Of a stretch of DNA of 64,000 nucleotides, positions 5,931 to 63,088 are shown piece by piece (position 1 is the first letter of the stretch; every line of letters begins with the position of its first letter). This stretch comes from Henckelia pumila. Its lineage: Eukaryota; Streptophyta; Magnoliopsida; Lamiales; Gesneriaceae. A program made the position numbers and the translations under genes. The notes beneath the pieces were generated by a model. It was not told the DNA's origin. It made no database searches and saw only the letters and a program-made list of their open reading frames with translations. The stretch is taken from contig NC_133122.1 of NCBI RefSeq assembly GCF_033568475.1, forward strand, positions 183,787,449 to 183,851,448. Reading direction: 5' to 3'.

Positions 5931-5960
5931 ATTGAGATATATATATATATATATATATAT

Positions 5961-17420: not shown

Positions 17421-17560
17421 AGCCCATTAACTTAAGACTTGGCCCATAAATCAACCAAAGCCCATTAAGACTAAATTAGGCCCAATAACACTGTCCCTGA
17501 CCCAATGGGCCCAAAAGCCCAATAATAGGCCCAATAACTTTCATGGGCTCCCAAGCCCAT
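17421..17560 (-). promoter_or_regulatory. Cluster of site II (TGGGCC/T) motifs in the LTR
   Basis: About nine TGGGCC or TGGGCT words (minus strand) in 140 bp, repeated in the other LTR at about 24939-25078. In plant promoters such site II elements bind TCP factors and are linked to expression in dividing cells. The motif cluster is seen; promoter use is inference. Confidence 0.5.
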
Positions 17561-17875
17561 AAAAATTTCTGGCCAACTTAAAAACTTAAATAAAAATTAT
17601 TAAAAGCCCAGAAATAACTAAAATAACCCAAAATAATTTAATGGAACCCAAATAAATTAAATGGTACTAATTAAATTTTTGGAAATTTAATTAGTCCATT
17701 TAATTCCTAATTAACTTAAAGACTTAAAAATAAAAATACCCGAGCCCAATTAAAATAATCCGGACCCGGACCCACTTAACTTAACCCATCTTATTTTAGA
17801 CCCGACCCGGATCCAAGTCAAACCCTAGAACCCGAAACCCTACCTTACCTTTCCCTCCTTGTCTCGGCCGCACGA

Positions 17876-17962
17876 GCAGCAGGCCTTCACGGCCTGCTGC
17901 AGCCCAGCTCCGGCCACCGTGGCCGGAGCCCCGCCGGCAGGACCTCCCCAGGGTCCTGCCGG
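17876..17962. repeat. Three consecutive GC-rich hairpins in the LTR
   Basis: GCAGCAGGCC/GGCCTGCTGC, GCTCCGGCCA/TGGCCGGAGC and CCGGCAGGACC/GGTCCTGCCGG are adjacent perfect inverted repeats with 3- to 8-nt loops. They are unchanged in the other LTR at 25407-25493. Confidence 0.9.
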
Positions 17963-19069
17963 TTCGAACCATACCCTGGCCCGAACCCCATGCTATCCCC
18001 TTAGCCTACACCGAAACCTCTTCCACGAACCCTAGCCTGCGCAGCAGAAAACGGGCAGTCATGGTTCATCTCGAACCAGACCGGTCCTAGCCCGTTCCAA
18101 CCCGTGTCTGACCCTGCCACTCGACCCTAGGGACCCCAAAGAACCTTTCTAACCATGGACCAGCAGCCCACCTAGCCATGGACATGAAAAACGTGAGCAT
18201 GCAATCACAAACCAAAACCGAGTGCTTGAGAGAACAAATTTTGAAAGAAACGTGCTGTCAAAAAGATGAGTCTCGGTACTACACACCCACACACATACAT
18301 ACACTGATATAGGATTAAAAAGTGAATAGAAACATGCCTTAATACCGATTTATAGAGCTAAAAGCGTGTACGACGGGCTTCGGGACGATGGGACGACGAC
18401 GGGATGCCTTGGCTTGCTTGGAACCTTCGAAAACCGACCTCCTATGGAGTTTTAGGGCTGAAGACCGATTGGAGAAGATGATGAACAGTGGGGTGACGGC
18501 TGGGAGCTTGGAGTGATCGGCTAGAATAGGGTTTTAGGTAGAATAGGTTTTATTTTTTGGTGTTAATTAAAATATAGGTTAAATAATTAAATATAAAAAG
18601 GTTTTAAATAATTAATATACAACTTAAACCCCTAATTAAACTAAAAAAAATAAGATAACATAAAATAAATCTCGAAATATTAATTTAGGGGAATTTTAAA
18701 AATACTAAAAAGTCAGTATTTTGACTAATTTTGGATAAAAATGACCCCTAAAATTAAATAAAATTAAATACTTAAAATTTTGAGATAATAAAACTCAAAA
18801 TAATATTTTAAGGCTCTAAAAAGGCTCATAAAATAATTTGGGTGGAAAGTCGTCATCTCGTCCGTCCACGGTCCCGTCTACGCGATCAAATAATAAAAAT
18901 ACTAAAAATCATAAAAATTACTAATTATGGGTTAAATGCTTAAAAATGAATTAAATCATGCATAAATAATTCACATAATTATTTAACCCATAAATCATAA
19001 AATTTAAATAATTAATTATCCTAATTATGCAGGCGGATTTATGTAATTAAAAATACCGGGTGTTACAAT

Positions 19070-19081
19070 TCTCCCCCTCTT
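19070..19081 (-). other. Polypurine tract of the Tekay element
   Basis: The minus strand reads AAGAGGGGGAGA just before the 3' LTR start TGTAACACC, the usual place for plus-strand priming. Confidence 0.9.
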
Positions 19082-19112
19082 AAATTGAATTTCGTCCTCG
19101 AAATTAAAGTAC

Positions 19113-22100
19113 TTACCCGAACAACTCCGGGTAGCGAGTCCTCATATCCTCCTCGGTCTCCCAAGTAGCTTCCTCCTCCGAGTGATTCAGCCACTGGACT
19201 CTGACCATCGGTATGACCCGCGTCCTAAGCCTCCGCTCCTCTCTAGCCAAAATCCGCATTGGTCTCTCCTCGTAAACAAGATCTGGTGGCAACTGTAAGG
19301 GCTCGAAATCCAACACATGCGACGGGTTGGAGACATATCTCCGAAGCATGGATACATGGAAAACGTTGTGCACTGCCGCTAGCCCTGGAGGTAGAGCTAA
19401 ACGATAGGCCAACGTGCCAACTCGCTCCAAGATCTCGAATGGCCCTATATATCTCGGATTAAGCTTGCCTCTCCGTCTAAAACGCGCTACTCCCTTCATA
19501 GGTGACACCTTCAAGAATACGTGATCACCTACAGCAAACTCCAAATCGCGTCGTCTGTCATCTGCATAACTCTTCTGCCGACTCTGCGCAGTCCTCATCC
19601 TCGCTCGGATCTGCGTCACGATGTCAGCTGTCTGCTGCACAATCTCTGGACCCAACAAAATCCTCTCACCAACCTCATCTCAATGCACAGGAGATCTGCA
19701 TCTCCTCCCATAAAGTGCTGCATAAGGAGCCATACCTATAGACGACTGAAAGCTGTTGTTATAGGTAAACTCCACTAATGGCAGTCTAGTCTCCCAAGAT
19801 CCTCGAAAATCGATGACACAAGCTCTCAAAAGATCCTCGAGAACCTGGATCACTCTCTCGGACTGACCATCTGTCTGGGGATGAAATGTTGTACTGAACA
19901 AAAGTCTAGTACCCAAAGCTGTGTGCAGACTCTTCCAAAACGCTGAGGTGAACCTCGGATCTCTGTCTGACACGATAGACACTGGTATGCCATGCAGTCT
20001 AACAATCTCTCTGATGTAAAGCTCTGCATACTGTGTCAAAGTGTAAGTAGTTCTTACCGGCAAGAAATGAGCTGACTTGGTGAGTCTATCCACAATCACC
20101 CAAATTGCTGTACACCCTCTGGTACTCCTCGGTAAGCCAACCACAAAGTCCATCGTAATATTCTCCCACTTCCATTCCGGAATAGGGAGAGGTCTAAGAA
20201 GTCCTGCTGGACGCTGATGCTCTGCTTTGACTTGCTGACAAGTCAAGCACTCTGACACCACTCTCCCGATGTCACTCTTCATCCCAGGCCACCAATACAA
20301 TAACTGCAAGTCTCGGTACATCTTCGTACTTCCGGGGTGAATGGAGTACGGAGATGCATGAGCCTCTGCTAGAATCTCGGCTCTCAACTGATCAACGTTC
20401 GGTACCCACATCCTCCCACGGTACTGAACGATGCCATCCTCCACTGTATACAAGAGATTACCTCTGGCCTCATCTCTCTGTCTCCATCGCTGTAGCTCCT
20501 CATCAGTGGACTGTCCCTCTCTAATCCGATCTCGCAGAACTGGCTGCACCATCAACACTGACAAGCTCGGTGCATGGCCACTCGGATAGCACTCCAAACC
20601 AAATCTCTGAATCTCGGTCTGTAGTGGTAACTGTACAGTCAAACATGATACCACTGACGACTTCCGACTCAAAGCATCTGCCACTACATTAGCCTTACCC
20701 GGATGGTAGCTAATGTCACAGTCATAGTCCTTAACAAGCTCAAGCCATCTGCGCTGCCTCATGTTCAACTCCTTCTGGGTGAAGAAGTACTTGAGGCTCT
20801 TGTGGTCGGTGAAAATCTTGCATTTCTCGCCGTAAAGATAGTGCCTCCAGATTTTCAACGCAAATACCACTGCTGCAAGCTCCAAATCATGCGTCGGATA
20901 GTTCTGCTCATGAATCTTCAACTGTCGCGACGCATATGCGATAACTCTGCCACTCTGCATAAGTACTGCGCCCAAACCAAGCTTGGACGCGTCGGTGTAC
21001 ACCACTAACTCCTCATGTGGCACTGTCATAGCTAACACAGGTGCTGAAGTAAGTGCTTCCTTCAGCTGATCAAAGCTCCTCTGACAATCTGGACTCCAAC
21101 TATACTTCGCGTTCTTCTTGGTTAAGGAAGTCAAGGGTACTGCAATAGAGGAAAAACCCTTGATGAACTTCCTATAGTATCCTGCCAAACCCAAGAAGCT
21201 ACGAATCTCCGAAGCATTCTTTGGAATCCCCCAATCCTTCATTGCCTGCACCTTGGACTGATCCACTGCAATCCCATCCTTAGAAATAATGTGGCCTAGA
21301 AACGCCACTTGCTCCAACCAAAACTCACACTTACTGAACTTTGCAAACAGTCGATGCTCTCTCAAAGTCTGCAAGGCTGTATGCAAATGCTGTGTATGCT
21401 CCTCAATGCTCCTCGAGTAGATCAATATGTCATCAATGAATACAATGACAAACTGATCTAGATACGGCTGGAAGACACGATGCATGAGATCCATAAAAAC
21501 TGCTGGAGCATTGGTCAACCCAAAGGGCATCACTAAGAACTCGTAATGCCCATATCGTGTCCTAAAGGCAGTCTTAGACACGTCTGAATCCCTGACTCTC
21601 AGCTGATGGTAACCAGATCGCAGATCGATCTTGGAGAATACCGAAGCTCCCTACAACTGATCGAATAAATCCTCTATCCTCGGTAGTGGATACTTATTCT
21701 TCACTGTGACTCTGTTGAGTTCCCGGTAGTCGATGCACAATCTCATGCTGCCGTCCTTCTTCTTCACGAACAACACTGGAGCTCCCCATGGAGAAAAGCT
21801 AGGACGAACAAAACCCTTCTCCAACAGCTCCTGAATCTGCTCCTTCAACTCTCTCATCTCTGTAGGAGCAAGTCGATACGGTGCCTTAGAGATAGGCACA
21901 GTATCCGGCAACAACTCAATACTGAACTCCACCTCTCTCACTGGTGGAACTCCTGCAACATCGTCAGGAAAAACATCTGGATAGTCACGTACCACCTCTA
22001 TATCTGATAAAGATCTGCTAGAAACATCTGAGGTAGTGACCACACTAGCAAGAAAACCCTGACATCCATGGCGCAACAGTTTCCTCGCACGAACAAGTGA

Positions 22101-22486
22101 TATCATCTGAGGAATACTGCTAGACTGAGATGCAAAGAAAGTAAACATCTCACCTCCTGCTGGCTTCACTGACACTGTCCTACGTCGGAAATCAATCGAA
22201 GCTCCATTAACTGATAGCCAGTCCATACCCAGAATCAAGTCAAACCCAGTCAATGGAAGAACCACTAGATCTGCTCGAATGGAGTGTCCCTGCAACTCCA
22301 ATTCCAGGTCCCTGATGACACTAGTGGTAGTGATAATCTGTCCGGATGGCATGGTAACATCGTAACCACTGTCTACAACCTCTGGTGAAATGCCTATCCG
22401 TCTGATAAAATCCCGGGAGATAAACGAATGCGTGGCTCCTGAATCTAGCAACGCAAACGTGGAGTTGCCTCCAACTAGAATTCTCC
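19113..22486 (-). pseudogene. Tekay pol: protease, reverse transcriptase, RNase H, integrase, chromodomain
   Basis: Enzyme polyprotein of the retrotransposon. The frame opens right after the probable intron ([22 protein letters not shown]). Protease has DSGATHS. Reverse transcriptase spans [30 protein letters not shown] and the active site FIDDILIYS (near 21440). RNase H has [14 protein letters not shown]. Integrase shows the HHCC finger ([10 protein letters not shown]...CLTCQQVK), [18 protein letters not shown] and [11 protein letters not shown]. The C-terminus RVIPMVRVQWLNH...EEATWETEEDM is the degenerate chromodomain of the lineage. Two in-frame stops break it: TAG at 21649-21651 after EDLFDQL, where the family has Gln, and TGA at 19678-19680 after RRCRSPVH, where it has Trp. 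Both look like C-to-T or G-to-A changes. No frameshift was seen. An ORF start at 22451 is only a TTG and is not the real start. Confidence 0.92.
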
Positions 22487-22682
22487 CTGCACGCAGAAGA
22501 TTCCCAACAATTCACACCACTATGCTCCCAAGGTTAAAACACTAAAATCCTTAATTCTAATCACAAAGAAACAAAATTCTTATTCTAGCATGCTGATAAT
22601 TAAACTCATGTAACAGACATTCAGATATAATCGCAATTAAACAAAAGCAAAGAATTGAAAAAGTTCTAGGGGTTAGGTATAC
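22487..22682 (-). other. Probable 196-nt spliceosomal intron between gag and protease
   Basis: On the minus strand the segment starts GTATACCTAACC after exon end ATCACCG and finishes GCGTGCAG before GGAGAATTC. Joining across it turns ITG-IPNP-stop into [17 protein letters not shown], the continuous Gag-Pol sequence expected in Tekay elements. The segment is strikingly AT/T-rich next to GC-rich coding DNA. It holds stops in the pol frame and a branch-like TTTTAAC about 50 nt before the acceptor (22533-22540). Splicing itself is inferred, not shown. Confidence 0.75.
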
Positions 22683-23730
22683 CGGTGATCAAGGAGGTAT
22701 CTGGGTCTGCCTCCTCTGCCTGCATCACATACACTCGCCCACTGACGTTCTGCCTCTGCGGGCAGTTGGCAATCTGATGCCCTGGCTCCTTGCAGCGATA
22801 GCAGACTCCTGCTCCCAATAGACACTGCCCGAAATGCATCTTCTGGCACTTCGGACATACTGGATATCTCCCTGGAGTAGGGGCCCCGCCCCTAGTCTGC
22901 TGCTGTGGCTTCCCCTGAGGCCTCTGCTGATTCGGGCCCTTAGATGGCCCTGTAGACTGCTTCTTCGCAGGTGGCTGCGAAGATGGTCGCTGATACCCTG
23001 TCTGCATAAACTGCCTCTTACCCTGCTGCTCTCTATGTATCTCTCTCCGTCCCTCCTCGGAACGCAAGGCCCTGCTGACTGCAGACTCATATGTAAAGAC
23101 GTCTGCCATACGCACGTCATGCCTGATCTCAGCCTTCAGGCCCTCCACAAACTGTCGCAGCTTCTCCTGCGGACTATCAGCAATCATGGGCACAAAGTGA
23201 CAGCCCCTCTCAAACTAGCTCACGTACTCCACAACAGATCTGTCCCCCTGACGGAGACTCATGAACTCCCGGATCATGCGACTGCGCACATCCTCAGTGA
23301 AATACTTGGCGTAGAAGATACGCCTGAACTCAGCCCACGTCAGTGTAGGTAGATGGACCCCTCTAACTGCACCCTCCCACCAAAGGGCTGCATCGCCTCG
23401 CATCATGTACATCGCACAGCTCACCCTGTCGATGTCTGTGATCCCCATATAGTCGAAGATGGACTCAAGAGAGCGAATCCATCCCTCAGCCACCAAAGGA
23501 TCGGTGGTCCCCAAAAACTCCTTAGGCCCCTTCTTCTGGAACCTCTCTGCGACGTCCTCCTCATGGGACAGTCTGGGACGGGCAGCCTGCTGCTCCAACA
23601 GAGCAGTAATACCCGCCATCATCGTGGCACTGGCCTGCTCCAGTGTTGTCATGGGGTGCTGCTGAGGTGGCGGTGGAGGTGGAGGTGGATGTGGAGGTCT
23701 CCCACGTCGGTTCACTTGTCTGGGAGGCAT
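22666..23730 (-). pseudogene. Tekay gag with one in-frame stop
   Basis: Capsid/nucleocapsid protein. The likely start is MPPRQVNRRGRPP at 23730; the ATG five codons earlier adds MWWCR, which is atypical. The capsid region is KEFLGTTDPLVAEGWIRSLE, ALWWEGAVRG, TWAEFRRIFYAKYF and FMSLRQGDRSVVEYVS. A TAG at 23213-23215 interrupts it just before FERGCHFVPMIADSP, where relatives read VSxFERG without a break. The nucleocapsid has a proline/glutamine-rich basic stretch and one zinc knuckle CYRCKEPGHQIANC. Unspliced RNA ends translation at GIPNP (22666); spliced RNA would continue into protease. Except for the TAG the frame is open throughout. Confidence 0.92.
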
Positions 23731-23897
23731 TCTGCACCACCACATATTTATTTACGTAAATCGCCATGCATAACTAAGTGTTTAAAATTAAGGCTAACTT
23801 TAAATTCTTGAAATTAAATCATACTATAAACATTAAAACTTACAGACCGGTAGCGTGGATTTCTGAGCTAGCATAGCAGTAGTGACCCCTCCAAGGA

Positions 23898-23913
23898 CCG
23901 TGCTCTGATACCA
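23898..23913 (-). other. Primer binding site (initiator tRNA-Met)
   Basis: The minus strand reads TGGTATCAGAGCACGG two bases after the 5' LTR end; TGGTATCAGAGC matches the complement of initiator tRNA-Met. Confidence 0.92.
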
Positions 23914-23915
23914 AC

Positions 23916-26598
23916 TGAAACGACCCTAACTCTCTAATAAATAAATATGCGGAAATTTTTTTTTTTTTTTTATACTACTAAATAAATATATGTACATATA
24001 TGCCCATACATATATGCACAGAATAAAATAATTAAAATAAATACACGACTAAATAAATAAATAATTAAATACTTAAGAAAAATGCATTCTTTTAAATAAC
24101 CATCTGAGTCAAAACAATAATTAAAAATATACTGCATAAATAAAATAATTAAAATGTGTGCATGCACTAAAAATATTTAATAAAATATTCCAATAAACCT
24201 CAACCACTAAAAATATTAAAATGTATCATGACAACATGCACGGTGACTCAGAAGCTGTCACGGTCACGGGGCTACTGCAGCGCTGCTCATACATCCTCAC
24301 CACCGGTAGGAGTAACCTGCTCCTCTACGTACTCACCTGCACCATAACAGTGTAGTGAGCCTAGATGCCCAACATGCATACTAACAAGGGTTTAAAAATA
24401 ATTTAAATCAATTTAATACTAATACATACATATACATGAATGAGCATGCTTAAAAATTACATAACATAACTTACATAAATAAACATACATAACATACATA
24501 ATATCATACATACTAGAGTTGTTGAGCATTTATTTTCTTAACATCGAATGGTCCTATCCGTAAGTGTGACCCATAGTGCGACTGATCAGTCTAAGAAACC
24601 ATCGTACGAGGCTGGTGGCGAACCACCCATACATAAATGGCAGAAAACTGCCCATACATAAATGGCAGAAACTGCCCATACATAAATGGCCACACTACTT
24701 CAATTTCCACCTGAAATATTTTATTTGCTCAACCATAGAAATTCAATCATAGCATAAAAATTGATTTCATGAATGCATGTACTTAAATAAATTGTGTGTC
24801 CTTCATTTATATTTAATTTATTTTTTAATATCATATAAATATTCAAATAACTTTTCATGCATAAAAATAATTAAATATAAACTCGGGACACACGCAAATT
24901 TCTCATGGTTTGATACAGCTGCTGGCCCTAGACATGCAAGCCCATTAACTTAAGACTTGACCCATAAATCAACCAAAGCCCATTAAGACTAAATTAGGCC
25001 CAATAACACTGTCCCTGGCCCAATGGGCCCAAAAGCCCAATAATAGGCCCAATAACTTTCATGGGCTCCCAAGCCCATAAAAATTTCTGGCCAACTTAAA
25101 AACTTAAATAAAAATTATTAAAAGCCCAGAAATAACTAAAATAACCCAAAATAATTTAATGGAACCCAAATAAATTAAATGGTACTAATTAAATTTTTGG
25201 GAATTTAATTAGTCCATTTAATTCCTAATTAACTTAAAGACTTAAAAATAAAAATACCCGAGCCCAATTAAAATAACCCGGACCCACTTAACTTAACCCA
25301 TCTTATTTTAGACCCGACCCGGACCACCTGACCCGACCCGGATCCAAGTCAAACCCTAGAACCCGAAACCCTACCTTACCTTTCCCTCCTTGTCTCGGCC
25401 GCACGAGCAGCAGGCCTTCACGGCCTGCTGCAGCCCAGCTCCGGCCACCGTGGCCGGAGCCCCGCCGGCAGGACCTCCCCAGGGTCCTGCCGGTTCGAAC
25501 CATACCCTGGCCCGAACCCCATGCTGTCCCCTTAGCCTACACCGAAACCTCTTCCACGAACCCTAGCCTGCGCAGCAGAAAACGGGCAGTCATGGTTCAT
25601 CTCGAACCAGACCGGTCCTAGCCCGTTCCAACCCGTGTCTGACCCTGCCACTCGACCCTAGGGACCCCAAAGAACCTTTCTAACCATGGACCAGCAGCCC
25701 ACCTAGCCATGGACATGAAAAACGTGAGCATGCAATCACAAACCAAAACCGAGTGCTTGAGAGAACAAATTTTGAAAGAAACGTGCTGTCAAAAAGATGA
25801 GTCTCGGTACTACACACCCACACACATACATACACTGATATAGGATTAAAAAGTGAATAGAAACATGCCTTAATACCGATTTATAGAGCTAAAAGCGTGT
25901 ACGACGGGCTTCGGGACGACGGGACGACGACGGGATGCCTTGGCTTGCTTGGAACCTTCGAAAACCGACCTCCTATGGAGTTTTAGGGCTGAAGACCGAT
26001 TGGAGAAGATGATGAACAGTGGGGTGACGGCTGGGAGCTTGGAGTGATCGGCTAGAATAGGGTTTTAGGTAGAATAGGTTTTATTTTTTGGTGTTAATTA
26101 AAATATAGGTTAAATAATTAAATATAAAAAGGTTTTAAATAATTAATATACAACTTAAACCCCTAATTAAACTAAAAAAAATAAGATAACATAAAATAAA
26201 TCTCGAAATATTAATTTAGGGGAATTTTAAAAATACTAAAAAGTCAGTATTTTGACTAATTTTGGATAAAAATGACCCCTAAAATTAAATAAAATTAAAT
26301 ACTTAAAATTTTGAGATAATAAAACTCAAAATAATATTTTAAGGCTCTAAAAAGGCTCATAAAATAATTTGGGTGGAAAGTCGTCATCTCGTCCGTCCAC
26401 GGTCCCGTCTACGCGATCAAATAATAAAAATACTAAAAATCATAAAAATTACTAATTATGGGTTAAATGCTTAAAAATGAATTAAATCATGCATAAATAA
26501 TTCACATAATTATTTAACCCATAAATCATAAAATTTAAATAATTAATTATCCTAATTATGCAGGCAGATTTATGTAATTAAAAATACCGGGTGTTACA
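23916..26598 (-). repeat. 5' LTR of the Tekay element
   Basis: 2683 bp, nearly identical to 16398-19067. The 13-bp length difference comes from a 19-bp extra ACCTGACCCGACCCGG-like copy near 25320-25340 here and a 6-bp extra CCGGAC-type unit in the other LTR. Confidence 0.96.
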
Positions 26599-26602
26599 AT
26601 TA

Positions 26603-27554: not shown

Positions 27555-27925
27555 GGGTGCAAACGAGCCGAGCTACTCGTGAGTAGCTCGGTCAAAACTC
27601 GACTCGAGCTCGATTTGACCGAGCTCAAGCTCGAGCTCGAAAACATACCATCGAGCTTGAGCTCGAGCTCGAAATATATGTGCTCGAGTAGCTCGCGAGA
27701 TACTCGAAAACACATATAAATATAAAATATAATATAAATATATATATAAATATAATGTATATAATATTTTATTTATTTATTTATTCATATAATTTTTTAT
27801 TTATATATATTTATATATAATTATATATAATTTTCGAGCTCGAGCTCGAGCTCGAGTAGCTCGAAATATAGACGAGCTCGAGTTCGAGTACGAAATTAAC
27901 TACTCGATCGATTTTTGCACTTTAT
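27555..27925. repeat. GAGCTCGAGCTCG-rich element, probably hAT-like
   Basis: The left end GGGTGCAAACGAGCCGAGC and right end GATTTTTGCACTTT are loosely inverted. The interior holds GAGCTCGAGCTCGA tracts at both sides of an AT core, making a large imperfect palindrome. No certain target duplication was found. Confidence 0.5.
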
Positions 27926-42099: not shown

Positions 42100-43556
42100 A
42101 GAACAATCCTATATCATATTTAAAAATTTATTTGTTCCTATTCGTGCTTATCTGGTGTTCCTGTCCCGAGTTTTGCGCTTAAATCATCATATTTTTTTTA
42201 TTGTTTGTAGCTTTAACTGAAACTATAAAGCCTTAAATATTGAAGAGAAAGTCAAACATTGCATTGACGCGTTGGAATTGGGTTGAAAAGCAAGGAAGAC
42301 TTATAAGAAAAACTCCAAGAAAAATCAAGAAGTAGAATGCACGGACCTTGTATGTGGTTTGGACCATGGTCCGTGCATCGTAAAAACAACCTCGAAAAAT
42401 TTGCAAAAAAAATAAAATAAAACATAGACCCGTGTTCGGACCTTGCACGGATGTGGCACGGACCCTGTGTCCTTATGCGAAAAGTTTTCTTATTTTGTGC
42501 AGAATTTCGGAATTTTTGGGAACTTTGGATTACAAACAGTTTTTATTCCTTCTTGGCCACGAATTAAAGGGGGAAATCGGGTTTTTATGAAAGGATATAA
42601 AAGAAAACCACGATCCAACTAGAAAAGGACTTTTTGACACTTTTTCAAGACGACGGCTAGAGCTTGGAGCAAGAGGAGAAGAAGATGCACTTCACACGCC
42701 ATCACTCACATTCTTTCTCTTTTCTATTTTTATTTTTGTTTCAATTTCTTTATTTCTCACGATTTCAAACATTAAATTTTGTTTAGTTTTGATTTTACGG
42801 AGAACTCATCTTTTGACTGGGGTCACGATAGGATAGGGTTAAACTATTGATTTTTGCTCATGTATTGGATTGATTAATGTTTTGATTTATTATATGTTAT
42901 TGATTAATATTCACATAGATTTCATGCTTTAATTTGACCAATTAATCGCATGTTTGTTGTTTGATCTTGACTAAAACGAGAATAGATTTCAATTATCTTC
43001 AAAAAAATCGATCAACACATGGTTAAACCGATTAGAAATAGTATTCGGTTTATCAGTGTGCGATTTTAGGCAAAAAACTGAAATTTCATAGCTGTTGAAT
43101 GTGTTTTTGTTTAATTAAATTAAATTATAAATAAGTGTACTGTTAAATAAAAATAAGATTATTAATTCTAGAAATAAATTAATAATTAATATAGATAATT
43201 TCATCGTGACTGTAGATAATTCTTGTTTGATTCAATCCAATACGTGACAATAATTGATGTTTGGTATCGTGCTTGTGTGTTTCCGACCATTGTTTTGAAA
43301 TTTGAATTTGTTTTGAGCTTATTCTACCAGTTAAATAATTAAATTTTTGCTTTAGAACAATTTAGTTTATTTTAATTAATTTAAGTAGTACATAAAATTA
43401 TTTCTCTTATTTATCTTAGATAGTTAGATTAAATTAAAGAATTTACATCCTAGTAATTAGATGATAGTTCATGTAGGATTGACTTAGATTTAATTCAAAT
43501 ATATTATTACTTGACCTAGTACACTTGCTATAATTTTTAATCGAAATCGTCGGTCA
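42100..43556 (+). repeat. Solo LTR of the Athila family (5' edge worn)
   Basis: Plus-strand match to the minus-strand LTR at 987-2583: TATTCGTGCTTATC, TTTTGCGC(C/T)TAAATCATCAT, the CACGGACC palindrome block, ATCCAATACGTGACAAT and the end AATCGTCGGTCA. No primer site or gag follows, so it stands alone. The expected start TGATAAGCAC is not recognisable, so the left border is approximate. Confidence 0.82.
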
Positions 43557-43649
43557 AACATCTATGCCAACCACACACTACCCACAAAGATAATATAATC
43601 AATAGGATAAAAAGAAGAATGGAAAGTACAAACTACAATCTGATGCATA

Positions 43650-45162: not shown

Positions 45163-45976
45163 TGAAAGGAATATTTTATTTCTTAAAATCAACCTATTTT
45201 GAAAAGATTTTATTTAATATATTTTGCCTTTCTTGGACATGAATTAATCTTATATAAGTTATTTATTTCCTTGATTAACTTGATTTGTGATATTATTGAC
45301 TTTATCATATCATATCTAATGTGTATCGTTTTTCTTATTGTGCAGATTTGATATGATCAAATCTCAAGACTTCTACTTCTACAAGAAAAGATGTTGAAGA
45401 ATGACTCTTGCACTATTTAAGGAGATAGGCGTGCAAAAAGAAAAGGATCGACCAAAACATATAGAGATCGACTGAGAGAGTTTATAAAAAAAAGCTTCAT
45501 ACACGTACGTTAAGAGAAGAGCTTCTGAAGTCTGTATCGGTCGTGTTCACTTTATGCTTGAAGAACACTTGAAGATCATTGATCAAAAAGTGTTTTCATC
45601 TCTACAAGTTTTGGCGTCAAGAATTTCAACTCCTTGATCTATTTTCTTTATTCTATTTCATATAGAATTTTTAAGAGTTATTTTTAATCGCTTTATTTTC
45701 TCATATGTTGGAGAAAATTGATTTTACAATAATAACTAGTTTTAGGGTTTGTAAAACTCTTTGAATTATTTTCTAGTAAAGTTTTGCCCTGAGGCGCTGC
45801 AAGAGTATTTTATACTCTTGTTTAATTCATTTGAATCTATTTATTTGGTTTCTTGTTTATTTTATTCACGTTTTAATTATATTTCGCTGCAAATTACTCA
45901 AGGTGTTATTGTAGGTGTTGTCAACACCATTGGACAACACCTCAAACTATTTATGTGCAACCCCCATTCCCTTACA
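45163..45976 (+). repeat. 5' LTR of the SIRE-type element
   Basis: 814 bp, TGAAAGGAATATT to ATTCCCTTACA. One copy of the dyad module lies at 45914-45943, near the LTR 3' end. Confidence 0.95.
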
Positions 45977-45978
45977 AG

Positions 45979-45991
45979 TGGCATCAGAGCC
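45979..45991 (+). other. Primer binding site (initiator tRNA-Met)
   Basis: TGGCATCAGAGCC two bases after the LTR; one mismatch from the usual TGGTATCAGAGCC. Confidence 0.85.
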
Positions 45992-46048
45992 ATATTCTTG
46001 ATACACTAAGAACTGATCTTGGTTTGTTTATTTTATTCAGGGAATAAG

Positions 46049-47932
46049 ATGGACTCATCGCCTGTTGTGAACTCGTTTTTGAAACCTCCGGTCCTTGATG
46101 GCATGGATTACGCAATATGGAAGACTAGGATGTGATATACTATCAAAGCGATGGATGTTCGCGCTTGACAAAGTATTCTGACTGGCTGGAATCCTCCAAA
46201 GATATTAGATCCAGAAGAAGACTATATTATCAAGCAAGAAGAATCTTGGACTGCCGAGGAAACACAAAGTTCAAGCCACAATGCTAAAGCACTCAATGCA
46301 ATTTTTTCATCTGTGGATATGAGGATGTTTGGAATCATATCTGACTGCACTGTTGCTAAGGATGCATGAGATTCTCTTCAAGAACACTATGAAGGAACTG
46401 ATAGCGTGAGAAGAACATGATTGAGATTGTTAAACGCAAAATTTGAGAATATCAGGATGGATAAGAATGAGACTATTGCTGATTATGATAAGAAACTTAG
46501 GGAGATAGCTACAGAGGCGCATGCTCTTGGAGGACCTATTGCTGGTGAGAATATGGTGAACAAAGTTCTTCGGTCTTTGCCAAATAGATTCAATGGGAAG
46601 ATTTGGGCGCTTGAGGAGATAAAAGACACCTCAAAGATAAAGATGACTGAATTGATAAGTATCCTTCAAGTATTTGAGATGAACTATACAACACAAGAGA
46701 AGGATAAAGGAAAATCAATAGCACTTCAAGCTTCAAAGCCATCATACGAGGAGTATGTTCAATTTCATCAAGAAGTTCATCAATCTGATCTAGAAGATGA
46801 TTTGATCTCTCTCATGACTAGGAAATTCAATGATTATCTGAAGAAGATGAAAGAGACTAGAAAAACGAATCAAAAGCTCAAGGCTCCAATGTTTACTAGC
46901 AAGCCCTTGAGAATTACTGGACCAGAACAGTCACCAAGGAAGCTTACTGAAACTCCTAAGCCTCGCCTGATGTTGGAAGGAAAGAAGAAGATAGTTCCAA
47001 AGAAGTTAGACACAGTTCAATATCATGCTTGTCAAGGATTTGAACATTATGCAAATGAGTGTGCTAATACGCTTAGAAAAGGTATGAATACGTCATTAAG
47101 TGATGAAGAGTCTGATGAAGAAGAACAAGAGGATGAAGAAAGCCACACTGCCTTATCTGCTCTACTAGAAAACAAAAAGAAGTTTCAAGTCAATCCATTA
47201 GGTGTTGCCGCAGGTGTTGCCATACCTAGTCGTAACACCTCCCAAAGGTTAGTCTGTTTAAATTCTTCCATTACTGATAATGTGTGTGATAATGATTCAG
47301 GTGATGATATTATATCCATGGAAGAAGCTCGGATGATGTTTGAAGAATTACATACTGATTGGATTGAAAGGAATAAGTTAAACATCATTCTTTCAAAAGA
47401 AAATTCTGATCTGAAGGCTGATATGTCAAGACTTGAAGTTATGCTGAGTAAGAAAGACATGGAGTTAAGTAAGGTAAAGGAAGAACTTGGAAAGGCAAAA
47501 GCTACATTGGCTAAGTTTAATTCAAGCACGTCCATGCTTGATTCGTTGCTCATGATGGGAAGAGATGGTACGGCTGATTTAGGTTTTGAAAACATTAATT
47601 TGAGGTTGGTGAAAGTTCTAAAGGTCTTGTGTTTGTCAAGGAAAGTAGCAGTACTGAAAGCTCAAGCAAAAAGGCCTTACCAATTGATCCTCCAAAACCA
47701 AAGCCACAACCTACTGCTCCATTTGTGTCTAGAAGAAAACGTAAGTACATTTGTCACTACTGTCATAAACCTGGTCATATTAAACCATATTGTTTCAAGC
47801 TGCAGGAAGACTACAGGTATAGATCTGCATCGAAGGTGTTGCCTAAGGTGTCATCAACACCTCCCCACAACATCTCCAGAACAGATCTTATGTCAGAAAG
47901 GTTTGGGTACCAAAAGCTGATAATCAATGTCA
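46049..47932 (+). pseudogene. SIRE-type gag, broken
   Basis: Capsid and nucleocapsid protein. The start MDSSPVVNSFLKPPVLDGMDY at 46049 is the usual one. Four in-frame TGA stops fall before 46421, three of them at positions where the family has Trp (RM-stop-YTIKAMD, VRA-stop-QSILTGW, KDA-stop-DSL), so they are G-to-A changes. From 46421 the frame is long: LLNAKFENIRMDKNETIADY, LRSLPNRFNGKIWALEE, then a coiled-coil-like acidic stretch (MEEARMMFEELH...LSKVKEELGKAKATL). A frameshift near 47605 moves the end to another frame carrying the zinc knuckle CHYCHKPGHIKPYC. An upstream half-knuckle ACQGFEHYANEC lacks one Cys. Confidence 0.88.
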
Positions 47933-47933
47933 T

Positions 47934-50900
47934 ATGATCTATACTGATTTGAGAACTAATGTTTCAGGTGCTTGGTACTTTGATAGTGGCAACTCTTGTC
48001 ATATGACGAGTTCCAAGAAGTTTCTCACTGATTATGTTGAACAGATAAGTGGAAAAGTAACCTATGGAGGAGGTTTGAAGGGAAACATTGTTGGAAAAGG
48101 AACTCTGAATGTTGCTGGTTTGCCAAAACTTCGCAATGTGCTTCATGTTGAAGGACTAACTGCAAATCTAATAAGCATAAGCCAACTTTGTGATGATAAT
48201 TTGCATGTGCAATTTGATAAGAAATTATGCAAAGTTTTTGATGTTTCTAATTTGTGTGTCATAACAGGTACCAGGTCATCCGATAACTGCTATCAACTCG
48301 AAGAAGAGATGACTTGTAGGCACACAAAAGTGAATGAGTTTGATCTATGGCATTAAAAATGGGGTCATGCAAATTTTAAGACATTAAAGAACCTAAGTGA
48401 GTTAAATGTTGTCAGAGGTATTCCTAACTTAAAATCTGGTATTTCATTTGTGTGTGAAGCGTGTCAGATAGGGAAGCAGACTAGGGTGTCACACAAGGTG
48501 TTGCAAACATCTATGACAACACGCTGCCTTGAGCTTATACATATGGACTTGATGGGTCCAATGGATGTTGAAAGCTTTGGTGGTAAGAAATATTCCTTTG
48601 TTTATGTGGATGATTTTTCACGATATACTTGGGTAAACTTTTTGAGAGAAAAATCAGACACATTTGATGCCTTCAAGAAACTGCTCATAAAGATTTCGAA
48701 TCTACATAATCTGAAAGTAATCCGTATTCACACTGATCATGGTAAGGAGTTCGAGAACTCTTCTTTTGCTAGTTTGTGTGATAAGAAAGGTATTTCTCAT
48801 GAATTTTCTGCTCCTAAAATCCCACAACAAAATGAAATTGCTGAAAGGAAAAATAGGACTTTGCAAGAAATGGCAAGAGTGATGTTGAGTTCGAAAAATA
48901 TTTCAAAATATTTTTGGGCTGAAGCCTTGAATACTGCATGTCATATTTCAAATAGAGTTTATTTGAGGAATGGTACTACTATGATATCCTATGAAATTCT
49001 CATGGGAAAGAGGCCAAACCTTAAATATTTTCATGTTTTTGGATGTGTATATCACGTTTTGAATGACAGGGATCATCTTGCTAAATTTGATGCAAAAAGT
49101 GATAAGTGTATGTTCTTGGGATATTTTTCAAATAGCCGAGCCTATAAGATGTATAACTTGAGAACAAGGACTATTTTTGAGTCTATTAATGTTGTATTTA
49201 TGATTTTGCAGATCTAAAGAAGAAAACAGCTGAGGATGAAGTTGATGATCTGCTAGATAATTCTGAAAATTCAGATGTTGTCCAAGGAGTGTTGCCAACA
49301 CCTCCGACAACACCCTCTGCGGAAATTCCAGAAACAAAAATAGAAAAATCTACTGATGAGAATGTTGATGAGGACAGTGAGGTAAACGAAGCTGGAAAGA
49401 ATGTTCCAAGAAGAATTCAAAAGAATGACCCAACCTCACAGGTCATTGGAGATGTGCATGGAGACTTGCAAACTCGAAGGAAAGAGAAAGTGGATTATCG
49501 AAAGATGGCAGGATTAATATGCATGAGTTCTACATACTCTCAGGTAAAATTTTCTTGTTTCGTGTCAAACATTGACCCCAAAAAGGTTGAAGAAGCTTTA
49601 AAAGATGAATTTTGGGTCAATTCTATGCATGAAGAGTTAGAACAATTTGTTCGAAATGATGTTTGGTACTTGGTACCGTGTCCTGCTCATGGTAATGTCA
49701 TAGGAACTAAATGAATTTTCAAAAATAAAACTGATGAGTCGGGAAACATCATTAGAAATCAAGCTAGGTTGGTAGTTCAAGGGTATACACAGGTTGAAGT
49801 GGTAGATTTTGATGAAACCTTTGCTCCTGTAGCCCGTATTGAGTCAGTCCGACTTTTGCTCGCTATTTCATGTAACATGGGAATGAAATTTTTTCAAATG
49901 GATGTAAAAAGTGCCTTTTTGAATGAGATCCTAAATGAAGAAGTTTTTGTGAAATAACCTAAAGGGTTTGAGGATCCAAATCATCTTGATCATGTGTATA
50001 AATTGAAAAAGGCACTATATGGATTGAAGCAAGCACCACGTGCATGGTATGGAAGATTAACCGAGTACTTGCTCAATATTGGCTTCAAAAGAGGTGAAGT
50101 AAATAAGACTTTGTTCGTGCAAAAGTCTCAAGGTAATATCTTAATTTGCCAAATTTATGTAGATGATATAATATTTTGTGCTTCAAATGACAAACTTGTT
50201 GATGATTTTGTGAAGTGCATGTCTCCTACATTTGAAATGAGCATGGTTGGTGAGTTAACTTATTTCTTGGTCTTGCAAGTGAAACAAATGCATGATGTTA
50301 TATTTTTGTGTCAAAGCAATTATGCTAAGAATCTGGTGAAAAAGTTTCTGAATAACAACACTAAACACATGCGCACACCTATGAGGTCTAATGAAAAACT
50401 GTCTAGGGAGGATGTTGCCGAAGATGTTGACAACACCCTCTACAGAAGCATGATTGGTAGTCTTTTGTATTAAGTGCTACTAGACCTGATATCATGTATA
50501 GTATTTGTTTGTGTGCTAGATACCAGTCTAACCCAAAAATTACTCACTTAAAGGCCGTAAAACGTATACTGAAATATGTGGCAGGTACTTTGAATTTGGG
50601 TTTGTGGTACACTAAAGAAACCAATTCGAATTTGGTAGGGTTTAGTGATGCTGATTGGGCTGGGGATTTAGATGAGAGAAAGAGCACTTCGGGAGGATGT
50701 TTCTATTTGGGGAATATTTTAGTGTCTTGGTATAGTAAAAAACAAAATTGTGTCTCACTTTCTACTGCCGAGTCTTAGTATGTTGCTGTTGGTAGTTGTT
50801 GCTCACAACTCCTTTGGATGAATCAAATGCTAAATGATTATGGTATTAAGAGTGATACTCCTATTGTGTACTGTGATAATTCTAGTGCCATTGATATATC

Positions 50901-51096
50901 CAAAAATCCAGTACAACACTCTCGAACCAAACACATTGACATTAGACATCACTTCATTCGAGATTTGGTCGAGAAAAACATGATCTTAATTAAATTTATT
51001 GGAACAAATAACCAATTAGATGATATATTCACAAAAGCTTTGGATTTCGAGAGATTTTCCAATCTAAAAAAGTCTCTCAGTATGTGTGCATTATAA
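47934..51096 (+). pseudogene. SIRE-type pol: protease, integrase, reverse transcriptase, RNase H
   Basis: Copia-order polyprotein. Protease: WYFDSGNSCHMTSS, with Asn-Ser where working copies have Gly-Cys/Ala. Integrase: HANFKTLKNL, CEACQIGKQTRVS, LELIHMDLMGPM, HTDHGKEFENSSF, HEFSAPKIPQQNEIAERKNRT. Reverse transcriptase: NDVWYLVPCP, ARLVVQGYTQ, DETFAPVARIESVRLLLA, MDVKSAFLNE, LKQAPRAWY and the active site YVDDIIFCAS. RNase H: GFSDADWAGD, KSTSGGCFYLG, PIVYCDNSSAI, HSRTKHIDIRHHFIRD. Stops at 48354 (after FDLWH), 49712 (Trp in the family), 49955 (Gln) and 50776, and one-base deletions near 49193 and 50472, break it. Dyad-module copies lie within integrase (48484) and between reverse transcriptase and RNase H (50411) without changing protein length. 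Confidence 0.92.
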
Positions 51097-52139
51097 TTAG
51101 AACTGAAATATTGTCAGGTGTGTTGCCAACACCCTGTGACAACATCTTTTCATTCATGTGCATTTTTAGGATCTTAGGCATATTGCATTCATGCATACAC
51201 TCTGTTTTATGATGTGTTTGATACTTTGTAACCATCCACTGGTTTTCACTCAGGATTTTGTGCAAAATGTTTTACAGTTTAATATGGAAAAATTAAAGAA
51301 AAGTTCTGAATAAGTCACGAAGTAGTGGAGGGATGTTCGTGTAGTCCATGATCTTGTCCCAAATGAAAGTGACTTTGCAAAATCAGATTCTCAAAAGAAC
51401 AAGAATGTTTAAGCTTGAATTGAGTCAATCATCAAATTTGATTGATAATCAGAAGCAAATGGAAAAAGCTACCTAAAGGGGTCCATTTGAAGATCGTTCC
51501 TTTAGTGTGCAGGCTACCACTTCTGCAAATATAATGAATTGTATACCAAACTTTCTCTGAATCCTGAAGTGTTGCTGGAAGATGTTGCCAACATCGTGGA
51601 AAACACCTCACTTGTCAACATATTTTTGTGCATTTAATTGCATTTTATTTTTATGTCACATTCTGTTTTAGACATAATTAGGACATGCATATTTTTATTT
51701 GTGAATATCTTTGGCCGAAAGGTTATGAATTCTGATCAAACAAAATTTTTTGAATTTTTCCCTATCATCTGAATTTTTGAATTTGAATGAGATTGGATTT
51801 TGTTTCAGTGGTGTTATATTCTAATGAGGAGTTAAACTTGAAAATATTTGGTGAAATATTTGGGCCTAGATTATCGGTAAAAATTAAAGAGATTTGTTTC
51901 CTAATCGAATTAGAGTGCCGTTAGGATTAGGATTTGTTACCGTTGAGATTTTCTTACCGTTAGCAAGGCTGTAAATACGAGTGAGGATAGGAAAGGCTGA
52001 GTGTTTTATATATTTGGGTATTTATCTGTTTTTGTAAATACATTAATTCCTTGTGTCAATCCTCGCTTCTCATTATCTTCATAGCCTCTGCTCACATTTT
52101 GCCCAAATTTCCTCTCTGATTTTCACTCGTGAAATTCAA
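51097..52139 (+). other. Spacer between pol and the third ORF
   Basis: Non-coding, about 1 kb, with two dyad-module copies (51117, 51568). A TATATAT run at 52007-52013, followed by a CT-rich leader before the ATG at 52140, could be an internal promoter for the third ORF; this is inference. Confidence 0.45.
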
Positions 52140-54137
52140 ATGGCAGGAAAAGGTTTTGATCCCCAAGATATTCGATCGGATATGGGCTATACAGAGGATG
52201 CTGCGGAAGGTGTTCCAACACCTATGTCACCACACCCAGTGGTTGAACAAGCCCTGATCCCTGTTACTGAAGAACCAATGCCCCTAGACTCCATCACTCC
52301 AGGAGAGCCAGGAAATGAGATTGATGTGGAAACTTTGCCAGATATGAGCGTGCTGAATAAGGTGTTTCCTTCAAAACCCTTGACCCGTAGATCCAAGAGA
52401 CAGGCCGGATATGATCCAGACTTCACTGCATCCAAAAGATTTTGAGGGAAAGGCCAACCTTCAAGACCTTCTCTCGTGGACACCGAATTTTCCTCTAGTG
52501 ATGCAAGCTCCGATGAAGACTTGAAGTTGGTACATCGAAAAAGGGGAAAGAAGAGTGCCATGGAACCCTCTGTTCCAACCATCTCCGTTTCGTTTGAATC
52601 TGAGGAAAAATCAAATGGGAGTTCATCTTCTAATGATGAATCCACAGAATTAGAAACTCCACTTGTTGCTACTGAAGAGAAAGATGCACCTGCCTATATT
52701 CCTACTGTTGAGGAACCATCATCTGCTGCTCCTCCTGAATTTTCTGATGATGAAGAGATGTCTATAGCTCAGTTCATGGCTAAAATGAAGAAATCAAAGG
52801 GTAAGAAAGTAGCAGGGCCTACTAGTGAATCTAATGAAGAACCTGATGAAGAGATGCTCTAGGAATTTGCTGATAACCGTCCTCACCCCTCTGATAGTTC
52901 CAGCTCTGATTCGAGTAAAGATTCAGATGCTGAGAAAGAATTGGAATAAGAGTCAGATTCTGATGACTCTGAGAAAGAAGAATAAGATGTTGAGGAAGGT
53001 GTTGCCGACACCCTGGACAACACCTTGGGTGAAGACTATCGGGTAAATGAGTCTTATTCCTCAACTTTTTATTCCAAGAAAATTGCTGATTGCTGGGATA
53101 AATATTCTGATCGTGAGTTCCTTGAGGAACACAATATTGATGTGGAGAGCTATGGAGCTCAAAATTTGGTCAGATTCTTTGAGGTAAGAAATCTGCTGGC
53201 CACTGTCTCCACTGCTGGTCCATATTGCAGGGAAATTGTTCGAGAATTTTATTGTAACTTGACTGAAGCTGTGAAGGATCCAAGATATGTCAAGTATGGG
53301 AAGGTGTATGTGCGAGGACAAATTTTTGCCTTCAGTCCTGCTATGATCAATGGATTCCTCCATACACTTACTGGTGATGATGCTGCAGTACCAAATTTGG
53401 ATGAGATGATTTCTGTCATCACATGAGGGCAAGTCACTGTATTTCCAGCTCACCCTATGAAGTTGCAGGCTGCCAAGCTCACTTCCTTCTACTTTGTTCT
53501 ACACAAGACAACTGTCAAGACATGGACTCCATCTGGGAATTCTACTGTTGTTACCAAGCATTAGGCTCCAGTCTTGTACGCCATTGGCACATGAATCAAT
53601 TTCAATTATGGCCGACTGGTGTTTGACACAGTCATGACCTTTGCAGATTGTGATCAACCGACCCTGAAGCTTCCATATCCTTCTCTGATCTATGCCATGA
53701 TGCTATATCAAGAGATTGAAAATGATGATGATGAGCTACTTATAGAGCCTGGGGAGTTGTTAAAGATCACACCTGCATTACTCAAAGGAAATAGAAAGAT
53801 AGACCTTCCTTGGTCTGAATCAGATGTTGCCGCAGGTGTTGTGGCAGGTGTTGCCAACACCTCCTCTGCCACAGCTGTTTTTGTACCCCCATATGCTGCT
53901 CAAGATATTGATCCTACTTTTATTCAAGCTCAACTGCTGCATGCTGAGCAGAAGATTACCCAAGCTAAGGCTGATTTAGCCTATTATGAAGGGTTTAAGG
54001 CTCACTACGAGTCACTACTACGTGGAGCTGGCCCTTCTGAACAAAAAGAGGGAGAAGAAAGTAAAGATAAAAAGGAAGAGGCTGATGGCTCATCCGAGAG
54101 CAATCAATTCTTGTTTTGTTTGTTTTGGTTTTGCTAG
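52140..54137 (+). pseudogene. Third ORF of the SIRE-type element with a plant-transposon-protein domain
   Basis: One reading frame of 665 codons from MAGKGFDPQDIRSDMGY to QFLFCLFWFC. It has in-frame stops (about 52443, 52861, 52947, 52983, 53424, 53562, 53592) but no frameshift. Residues 1-290 are acidic, Ser/Glu-rich and low in complexity, with basic patches such as RRSKRQ and KKSKGKK. The middle (about 300-430: YSDREFLEEHNIDVESYGAQN, LVRFFEVRNLLATV, EIVREFYCNLTEAVKD, KYGKVYVRGQIFAFSPAMING) matches the domain annotated in plants as putative plant transposon protein. Towards the end, AEQKITQAKADLAYYEGFKAHYESLLR looks like a coiled coil. SIRE elements often carry a third gene at this place, usually called envelope-like; the true function is unknown. 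Confidence 0.8.
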
Positions 54138-54413
54138 TTTAGTTTCAGTTGATGTTAGTCTTAAGTATTGTGTTTTTGCTCTTATCCTAATCAAAACTTG
54201 TTTTTGATGTTAGCTCTGATATGTTTTTTCTTGTTTCTGTTTCTCCAGCTTGCACTTATGTTTTCTGATCTGAAGTGTCGTAGCTAGATGTTGCCAACAT
54301 CTCGTGACAACACCTATGTTATACTTAGGGGGAGAATCTATTTAGGGAGAGTTTTGATTAAGGGGGAGTTAAGTTGATTTGTTCATGGATTAAATGTGTT
54401 TTGTCCAGAAAGG

Positions 54414-54427
54414 AAATAAGGGAGAGA
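54414..54427 (+). other. Polypurine tract
   Basis: AAATAAGGGAGAGA directly before the 3' LTR. Two other purine runs, AGGGGGAGAA (54328) and AAGGGGGAGTT (54359), precede it. Confidence 0.75.
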
Positions 54428-54428
54428 T

Positions 54429-55240
54429 TGAAAGAAATATTTTATTCTTTAAAATCAACCTATTTTGAAAAGATTTTATTTAATATCTTTTGCCTTTCTT
54501 GGACATGAAGTAATCTTATATAAGTTATTTATTTTCTTGATTAACTTGATTTGTGATATTATTGACTTTATCATATCATATCTAATGTGTATCGTTTTTC
54601 TTATTGTGCAGATTTGATATGATCAAATCTCAAGACTTCTACTTCTACAAGGAAAGATGTTGAAGAATGACTCTTGCACTATTTAAGGAGATAAGCGTGC
54701 AAAAAGAAAAGGATCGACCAAAACATATAGAGATCAACTGAGAGAGTTTATAAAAAAAGCTTCATACACGTACGTTAAGAGAAGAGCTTCTGAAGTCTGT
54801 ATCGGTCGTGTTCACTTTATGCTTGAAGAACATTTGAAGATCATTGATCAAAAAGTGTTTTCATCTCTACAAGTTTTGGCGTCAAGAATTTCAACTCCTT
54901 GATCTATTTTCTTTATTCTATTTCATATAGAATTTTTAGGAGTTATTTTTATTTGCTTTATTTTCTCAAATGTTGAAGAAAATTGATTTTACAATAATCA
55001 CTAGTTTTAGGGTTTGTAAAACTCTTTGAATTATTTTCTAGTGAAGTTTTGCCCTGAGGCGCTGCAAGAGTATTTTATACTCTTGCTTAATTCATTTGAG
55101 TCTATTTATTTGGTTGCTTGTTTATTTTATTCACGTTTTAATTATATTCCGCTGCAAATCACTCAAGATGTTATTGTAAGTGTTGTCAACACCGTTGGAC
55201 AACACCTCAAACTATTTATGTGCAACCCCATTCCCTTACA
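54429..55240 (+). repeat. 3' LTR of the SIRE-type element
   Basis: 812 bp, TGAAAGAAATATT to ATTCCCTTACA, about 96-97% like the 5' LTR by eye. The dyad module lies at 55179-55208. Confidence 0.95.
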
Positions 55241-62546: not shown

Positions 62547-62930
62547 GTTCAGATGGTCCGAACTCCCCATTCGGATCATCCGATCTCTACATGTGAGCCA
62601 CTTGTCCTGCCAAAACTTCGGATCATCCGATCTTTACCCTCGGACGGTCCGATCTCCTCTACGCATCCAATCAAATGCATGGATTCTATGCACCTGTTCT
62701 GGTGACACATCGGGCTCCGATCCTTCTCTTTGGATCGTTCGATCCCAAAATAATACGGCATCCATGATGTCATTACAATAATTGATATTGGAAACATGTC
62801 CGCCTTGAGTTCAAATTGTCCAAACTTGCAATCGGATCGTTCGATCCCTTCGCAGCTTCCGAACTCAAGCTACCCTTCCGAACTCAATTACTTCGGATCA
62901 TCCGATCCTTGGTTTCGGATCTTTCGATCC
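62547..62930. repeat. Seven or eight TCGGATCRTYCGATC palindromes in U3
   Basis: Copies at 62571-62585, 62618-62632, 62640-62654, 62730-62744, 62832-62846, 62893-62907 and 62915-62929, and a diverged one near 62547. All share TCGGA...CGATC dyads and lie within 400 bp upstream of the TATA box. Confidence 0.88.
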
Positions 62931-63088
62931 CTCCGAGATCTAGAAACCCACTGGACCATTTTCAAGTGTTCTGAATTCATTTTTCAACTCCTTAGACTCA
63001 TAAGGAATTTTCTTAATCTATTTTTCCCCAATCTAAACACGATTACACCACTAATCAAGAATTAGATATTAATTTAGGATTCGGGTCA

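Follow-up and report, generated by a model that had tools for sequence, protein, structure and literature searches.

Plant Sireviruses can have an "envelope-like" extra open reading frame (ORF) and palindromic repeats; palindromes in the long terminal repeats (LTRs) of maize Sireviruses are reportedly the subject of a later study. The passages of Bousios et al. (2010; PMC2829016) on Sirevirus repeated motifs (RMs) describe palindromic, repeated, element-specific sequences in the LTRs and linker of 13 elements of their set; among these 13 repeat-bearing elements, linker repeats accompany the ENV-like gene (9 of 9 Sireviruses with an ENV gene and 0 of 4 without), and a CGG-CCG core occurs in all but Tnd-1, so it is not universal in Sireviruses. 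A second system is that of the VANC proteins of VANDAL transposons, whose targets, in the parts of Hosaka et al. (2017; PMC5735166) and Sasaki et al. (2023; PMC10398659) that bear on them, share a short motif enriched in one transposable element (TE) family, and related VANDAL families change that motif together. Here we describe a SIRE-type Copia element, located in a 64-kb stretch of Henckelia pumila DNA (the window), that carries an inverted four-half-site module thirteen times along its length. The modules may be operators recognized by a sequence-specific DNA-binding protein with a VANC-like anti-silencing role, for which the product of the element's third ORF (ORF3; PF20167) is the most likely candidate, a reading based on sequence comparison and analogy to which we give somewhat less than even weight.

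The modules span positions 45,898-55,209 and lie in the LTRs, gag, pol, the spacer, ORF3, and the 3′ untranslated region (UTR) of the element, which was taken as 10.2 kb, the remainder of the window being 53.8 kb. Each is about 45 bp in size and contains four half-sites, TGTTG twice and its inverted counterpart CAACA twice; aligned, the sites read approximately GRTGTTG-N5-GRTGTTG-N-CAACAYC-N3/4-GACAACAYC. The inner half-site pair overlaps as one 15-bp dyad (GRTGTTGNCAACAYC), and each outer half-site lies 12 or 13 bp from its inner neighbor. The original prediction, made from the letters of the window, had given this half-site composition correctly, but the strict 12-bp phase that it proposed does not hold. 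Its estimate of about 13 modules, distributed over both LTRs, coding regions, and spacers, was borne out by a profile built from 11 modules, which returned 13 sites at E < 1e-3, two of them not in the training set, and no further site below E = 1 in the window. Eight modules are in reading frames, three in the spacer or 3′ UTR, and two in LTRs, as follows (RVT_2 and gag_pre-integrs are domain names; RT, reverse transcriptase).

45898..45944: module 1, 5′ LTR near its 3′ end (profile E = 1e-10)
47200..47242: module 2, gag; two good left half-sites, right side degenerate (E = 1.7e-4; outside the training set)
47830..47877: module 3, end of gag (E = 2.4e-8)
48481..48529: module 4, integrase, between the gag_pre-integrs and rve matches (E = 4e-8)
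49270..49319: module 5, integrase-RT linker (E = 1.1e-8)
50408..50455: module 6, after the RVT_2 match (E = 1.1e-8)
51104..51149: module 7, noncoding, just past pol (E = 1.1e-7)
51565..51613: module 8, spacer (E = 8.5e-9)
52194..52237: module 9, start of ORF3; degenerate, one base short (E = 5.5e-5; outside the training set)
52983..53029: module 10, ORF3, ahead of the PF20167 match (E = 3.1e-10)
53823..53871: module 11, ORF3 past the PF20167 region, with an extra left half-site (E = 1.6e-8)
54271..54319: module 12, 3′ UTR (E = 7e-8)
55163..55209: module 13, 3′ LTR near its 3′ end (E = 6.9e-10)

Intermodule distances range from 440 to 1,299 bp (mean, 772; coefficient of variation, 0.33), and the thirteen modules are spaced more evenly than random placement would give (P = 7e-5), as the proposed regular dispersal implied. 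Even spacing with a 440-bp minimum, together with the conserved multi-half-site geometry described below, would also suit modules that organize chromatin or recombination, whether as insulators, in nucleosome phasing or tethering, or in integration targeting, and that have no part in anti-silencing; we regard this explanation as a long shot.

All 18 exact matches to GRTGTTGYC in the window fall at 45,914-55,206 (shuffled sequence: mean, 1.15; largest, 5). The dyad GRTGTTGNCAACAYC occurs in the element 5 times exactly, 10 times with ≤1 mismatch, and 11 times with ≤2 mismatches, and 0 times at any of these thresholds in the other 53.8 kb of the window. The module is thus absent elsewhere in the window, as had been claimed, although single half-sites with one mismatch are present there. 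The degenerate modules at 47,213 and 52,210 contain no dyad with up to 2 mismatches. Counting dyads with ≤1 mismatch, 1,000 dinucleotide shuffles of the element gave a mean of 0.008 and at most 1, while 300 fifth-order Markov strings gave a mean of 0.86 and at most 4, which is expected because these strings keep the 6-letter words of the element and thus much of the motif. An unbiased scan for inverted pairs of 5-mers ranked GTGTT, TGTTG, and GGTGT combinations top in the element. The same scan returned one AT-rich pair below 1e-5 in the neighboring Gypsy element and AT repeats plus two unrelated palindrome clusters in other parts of the window. That Gypsy element (16398-26601; 2.7-kb LTRs, 98.8% identical) served as an internal control and has 0 dyads with ≤2 mismatches.

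A repeated peptide could in principle produce a motif in coding DNA. The eight coding modules, however, occupy more than one codon phase (phase 0 for four modules, phase 2 for three, and phase 1 for module 9, which is degenerate). When the ORF pieces (5,812 nucleotides [nt]) were recoded synonymously, with 2,000 draws under each of two schemes, the mean was 0.10 and the maximum 2 dyads with ≤1 mismatch, versus 5 observed. The protein-repeat explanation was therefore rejected, and the motif count exceeds the expectation from both dinucleotide shuffling and synonymous recoding. At the RT site of module 6, the element has no insertion relative to other elements; the length is the same and the residues differ. 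This site was spanned by 92 relatives among the best 120 of 7,822 RT matches, the near relatives P0002 and P0025 being left out of the count since they stop short of it. Among these 92, only the best match, P0001, has the window element's DVxxxVDNT, and a D present in 88 of them and a G present in 78 are replaced in the window element. P0001 is also the only relative possibly from another species in which the module is visible at the protein level. The motif at this site seems to have arisen by substitution, with some cost to the protein.

The 885-Mb genome contains 4,044 exact dyads, compared with 4 for the reversed pattern. We took 20 regions, each 10 kb long, that together cover 37 of the 50 dyads listed, which are all on contig C1; DNA similar to the element is present in every one of the 20. 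Of the 73 dyads with ≤2 mismatches in these regions, 55 coincide with modules of the window element, 17 fall in DNA that does not align to it, and the remaining one has a new position; two of the 17 (2 mismatches each) are in or beside other Copia sequence. Full modules of divergent copies persist inside stretches that do not align to the window element. The dyad accordingly appears concentrated in one TE family. Among the loci aligned at a given site, the dyad was present in 9/9 (module 1; 45,914), 5/7 (module 3), 7/9 (module 4), 1/6 (module 5; 49,288), 9/9 (module 6; 50,423), 3/4 (module 7), 6/8 (module 8), 4/6 (module 10), 4/5 (module 11), and 5/5 (module 12; 54,287), and at the two degenerate sites in 0/7 (47,213) and 0/2 (52,210). 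In three loci (L014 at 4852-5018, L023 at 3728-3893, and L024 at 5809-5974), the LTR dyad is accompanied by another at a distance of about 150 bp, in sequence that cannot be aligned to the window LTR.

A set selected without regard to the motif consisted of 12 of 150 scored RT matches, although the RT query includes module 6. These copies, one of which aligned over 1,260 nt only, contain 65 dyads with ≤2 mismatches, all at the six covered module sites: 11 at 47,847, 11 at 48,497, 10 at 49,288, 12 at 50,423, 11 at 51,119, and 10 at 51,581. Other copies of the family therefore keep the module, as the original prediction required, and its further contention that gag, pol, LTR, or primer functions do not explain the array agrees with a family-wide feature at the nucleic acid level. 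Chance, a coding repeat, or an assembly artifact has a negligible probability as the source of the modules: the 4 dyads reached by Markov strings reflect reuse of the motif's own words, while the observed dyads greatly outnumber those of dinucleotide shuffles, of recoded ORF pieces, and of the reversed pattern used as a control, and they recur in other copies. In viral contigs, an alignment query and two motif patterns returned no locus; the one viral locus, L001 (5.6 kb, 96-base match), served for one half-site count only.

Within the modules, conservation is centered on the half-sites. In the RT-picked copies, identity to the window was 97.0% in half-site cores, 86.2% in the rest of the module, and 90.5% in flanks (62 copy-site pairs), core identity exceeding that of the flank in 59 of 62 pairs; at noncoding sites, the core was 97.0% and the flank 88.7% identical, with the core higher in 18 of 18 pairs. 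The 20 dyad-picked loci gave 94.6% for cores, 77.7% for the rest of the module, and 81.5% for flanks (74 pairs), and where these pairs lacked an exact dyad, the core still exceeded the flank in 39 of 43. P values from such pairs are optimistic because the pairs share the window and some loci. Geometry is also maintained. Among 132 modules with ≤1 mismatch, drawn from 33 sequences, 130 have an outer half-site (≤1 core mismatch) 12 or 13 bp away on at least one side and 71 have one on both sides, compared with chance expectations of about 9% for one side and 0.2% for both. These comparisons support well the conclusion that selection acts on the half-sites. Between the two LTRs of the window copy, 3 of 27 differences fall inside the module, which is therefore apparently unprotected after insertion.

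Related subfamilies use different half-site dialects. The dyads of a sister subfamily, represented by two copies (RT identity, 80% and 81%), occupy positions homologous to the window modules but mostly consist of AGTGTTG half-sites. The 12 RT-picked copies have AG in 16 of 102 inner half-sites, compared with 12 of 16 in the sister subfamily (Fisher, 3.5e-6), although half-sites of one element are not independent. A third lineage (L015, L016, and L022; RT of L016 and L022, 64-78% identical in matched pieces) has CG in 5 of 20 half-sites versus 0 of 102. ORF3 identity is 41-46% between the main and sister subfamilies and 43% between the main and third lineages. The motif appears to change together between related elements, on the evidence of the two sister copies. 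Two distant Copia stretches of the same genome, 4.2 kb each (best P0008 matches; RT, 57% and 61% identical to the window piece), one of which aligns to the element over RT and RNase H only, have no dyad with ≤2 mismatches.

A constant core raises the question of a host factor. RAV/TEM sites combine CAACA, the target of the RAV AP2 domain, with a CACCTG B3 half, and a transcription factor of this or another type could bind the modules and make the element a strong distributed enhancer of its own transcription. This alternative is unlikely but deserves serious attention, in that the core stays constant even between subfamilies with less than 50% ORF3 identity and in that stress-factor sites were proposed earlier for Sirevirus repeats, in the passages of PMC2829016 that treat them. 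Against it, promoter sites would not have to be distributed evenly through gag and pol, all 20 dyad regions contain one TE family, and the outer base is altered alike at many half-sites of one subfamily. The RAV factors named by the original prediction lost support in particular, as CACCTG (or CAGGTG) is found in just 7 of 132 modules. The W-box TTGAC(C/T) is present in 1 of 132.

The modules are self-complementary and mostly in transcribed DNA, which prompts an explanation at the RNA level, in which Gag would recognize hairpins or paired sites during packaging, dimerization, or protection. Five of the 13 modules fold with a z score below −2, and held-out profile scoring prefers the plus strand in 10 of 13. 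The predicted folds differ among modules, however (z from 0.05 to −4.79), and the inner half-sites are one base apart, so that closing the hairpin requires opening neighboring pairs. Three modules score better on the minus strand, so module orientation is not fixed, although this result is not decisive. The even spread of the modules over 9 kb, moreover, does not resemble known packaging signals. The hairpin reading is thus weak, and we consider a function in RNA improbable.

Returning to the operator proposal, selection by an oligomeric protein that binds DNA sequence specifically would be expected to produce a conserved, inverted module of four half-sites, with dialects that differ between subfamilies. 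Such a protein would occupy each module as a dimer of dimers, with two inverted half-sites meeting at the dyad and the two others placed one helical turn plus 2 to 3 bp outward. With one module about every 770 bp along the whole element body, the protein could cover the element after integration. The best candidate for the binder is the protein that the element itself encodes in ORF3; its effect would most likely be to remove silencing marks locally, the loss then extending from site to site, as with VANC on VANDAL elements. We infer each of these four points, namely, binding by a protein, its oligomeric state, its identity as ORF3, and the anti-silencing effect. The choice of ORF3 draws on the PF20167 domain of its host relatives, which also marks an Athila protein predicted to be nuclear, on basic clusters in some ORF3 pieces, on the diverged ORF3 of the sister subfamily, and on the ENV-like gene that goes with linker repeats in published Sireviruses. 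The anti-silencing effect is suggested by the VANC analogy and by sunflower SIRE elements, for which the relevant passages of PMC12844716 report a strong drop in CG methylation between the LTRs.

Several observations weigh against this proposal. The same passages on sunflower SIRE elements (PMC12844716) report that CHG methylation stays high, unlike the loss caused by VANC. ORF3 has no recognized DNA-binding domain, a sequence search of the PDB with ORF3 returned no relative, and two ORF3 structure predictions were poor (mean predicted local distance difference test [pLDDT] scores of 41.8 and 44.2). Basic clusters resembling a nuclear localization signal are found in only some pieces (the window N-terminal pieces, P0121, and P0123 but not P0122, P0124, or P0125). 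No clear membrane segment was seen, but the top 19-residue hydropathy, 1.58 in P0123, comes close to the usual membrane cutoff of 1.6 for 19 residues. ORF3 is broken in the window copy, the link between ORF3 and dialect is based on three lineages, the sister one comprising two copies, and one sister module retains GG/TG half-sites in both copies. Fast ORF3 evolution alongside a constant TGTTG core would also fit a conserved host binder. Finally, VANC motifs, as described in the corresponding parts of PMC5735166, form dense tandem arrays of one orientation, mainly in noncoding DNA of a DNA transposon, whereas the modules here are single dyads 440-1,299 bp apart, 8 of 13 of them in reading frames of a retrotransposon, and their binder is a candidate only. 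The VANDAL precedent cited by the original prediction remains the best functional analogy; the form of the array departs from it.

Host relatives of the ORF3 pieces carry PF20167, with the window piece scoring below the curated threshold of 45 bits. The ORF3 proteins P0121-P0126 come from the host's own genome and are therefore family copies, not cross-species evidence. The annotated P0122 and P0123 lack the segment that begins at the ORF3 module (53823-53861 in the window); gene prediction perhaps took a GGTGTT half-site as a splice donor in both.

The layout of the element provides the frame for comparison with Sireviruses. Its landmarks, all on the plus strand, are listed here (PBS, primer-binding site; PPT, polypurine tract).

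45163..45976, plus strand: 5′ LTR-homologous stretch, 96.7% identical to 54429-55240, ending in a C-rich tail plus CA
45979..45990, plus strand: PBS-like TGGCATCAGAGC, at a Sirevirus-like junction by comparison with the landmarks given in PMC2829016
46421..47920, plus strand: gag reading frame (PF14223), interrupted in this copy
49958..50473, plus strand: RT piece (PF07727, E = 2e-33)
52140..54137, plus strand: ORF3 in the "ENV-like" position, broken in this copy; pieces resemble host PF20167 proteins (38.8 bits)
54360..54368, plus strand: PPT with AGGGGGAG, an octamer described in PMC2829016; further copy at 54327
54429..55240, plus strand: 3′ LTR-homologous stretch, paired with the 5′ stretch; the LTR possibly starts about 50 bp earlier

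The 5′ LTR possibly lacks its first bases, because the 3′ PPT suggests an LTR start about 50 bp before the paired stretch. Pfam matches were obtained for gag, the protease-region domain, integrase, and RT pieces, the RNase H position was assigned from domain order alone, and the reading frames of this copy are broken. The Sirevirus junction CA-A(T/G)TGG-TATCAGAGC is found as CA-AGTGG-CATCAGAGC at 45975-45990, with the PBS one base off, and the Sirevirus trait of multiple AGGGGGAG octamers near the 3′ LTR is seen at 54327 and 54361. The palindromic CGG-CCG core of Sirevirus RMs is lacking (count of CGG-N0-8-CCG in the element, 0). The window RT is 54-77% identical to 22 aligned plant-type Copia RTs, among which there is no named Sirevirus reference. 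The C-rich LTR end, the PBS-like TGGCATCAGAGC, and the two AGGGGGAG tracts agree with the published Sirevirus landmarks.

Elsewhere in the window, a palindrome cluster of the TCGGATC-N-TCCGAT type (62555-62935) lies beside a TATA-like stretch and resembles a clustered CGG-CCG repeat of an LTR promoter in a different element. Dense repeats of the GAGCTCGAGCTC type occupy 27604-27890, and an inverted pair of about 0.9 kb (986-1881 and 42643-43557; 75.6% identical) is separated by about 41 kb.

Searches among open-license PMC papers returned no description of such a dispersed dyad array, which can be compared with the systems introduced above. Like Sirevirus RMs, as the passages of PMC2829016 portray them, the modules are palindromic, repeated, element-specific, and present in LTRs and linker, in an element with an ORF in the "ENV-like" position. 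The published RMs cluster in LTRs and linker, with extra copies at the ENV start in two elements, whereas the modules run through gag, pol, and ORF3, and in place of a CGG-CCG core they have TGTTG-N-CAACA with outer half-sites. Sunflower Athila, in the passages of PMC11728184 that concern it, is likewise an LTR retrotransposon with PF20167 (Transposase_32) in an additional ORF, whose protein is predicted to be nuclear; Athila is Gypsy whereas the window element is Copia, and those passages name no cognate motif array. More broadly, Sirevirus ORF3 could be a nuclear, sequence-specific anti-silencing factor rather than an envelope, each lineage having a dispersed operator array in its own dialect that guards the full length of the element, genes included; this is a bolder possibility, which we offer with considerable reserve. 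Because the family offers numerous copies, sharply defined half-sites, a conserved geometry, and naturally occurring dialects, the role of ORF3 and the role of the repeats become one binding question. If true, the proposal would show a way for an element to embed regulatory DNA within its own coding sequence. As in VANDAL, an additional ORF of the element is a candidate gene for the binder, and the sister subfamily changes half-sites together; should ORF3 prefer its own half-site, it would be the retrotransposon counterpart of VANC. The array may be a variant of the Sirevirus repeated motifs that could work like VANC targets.

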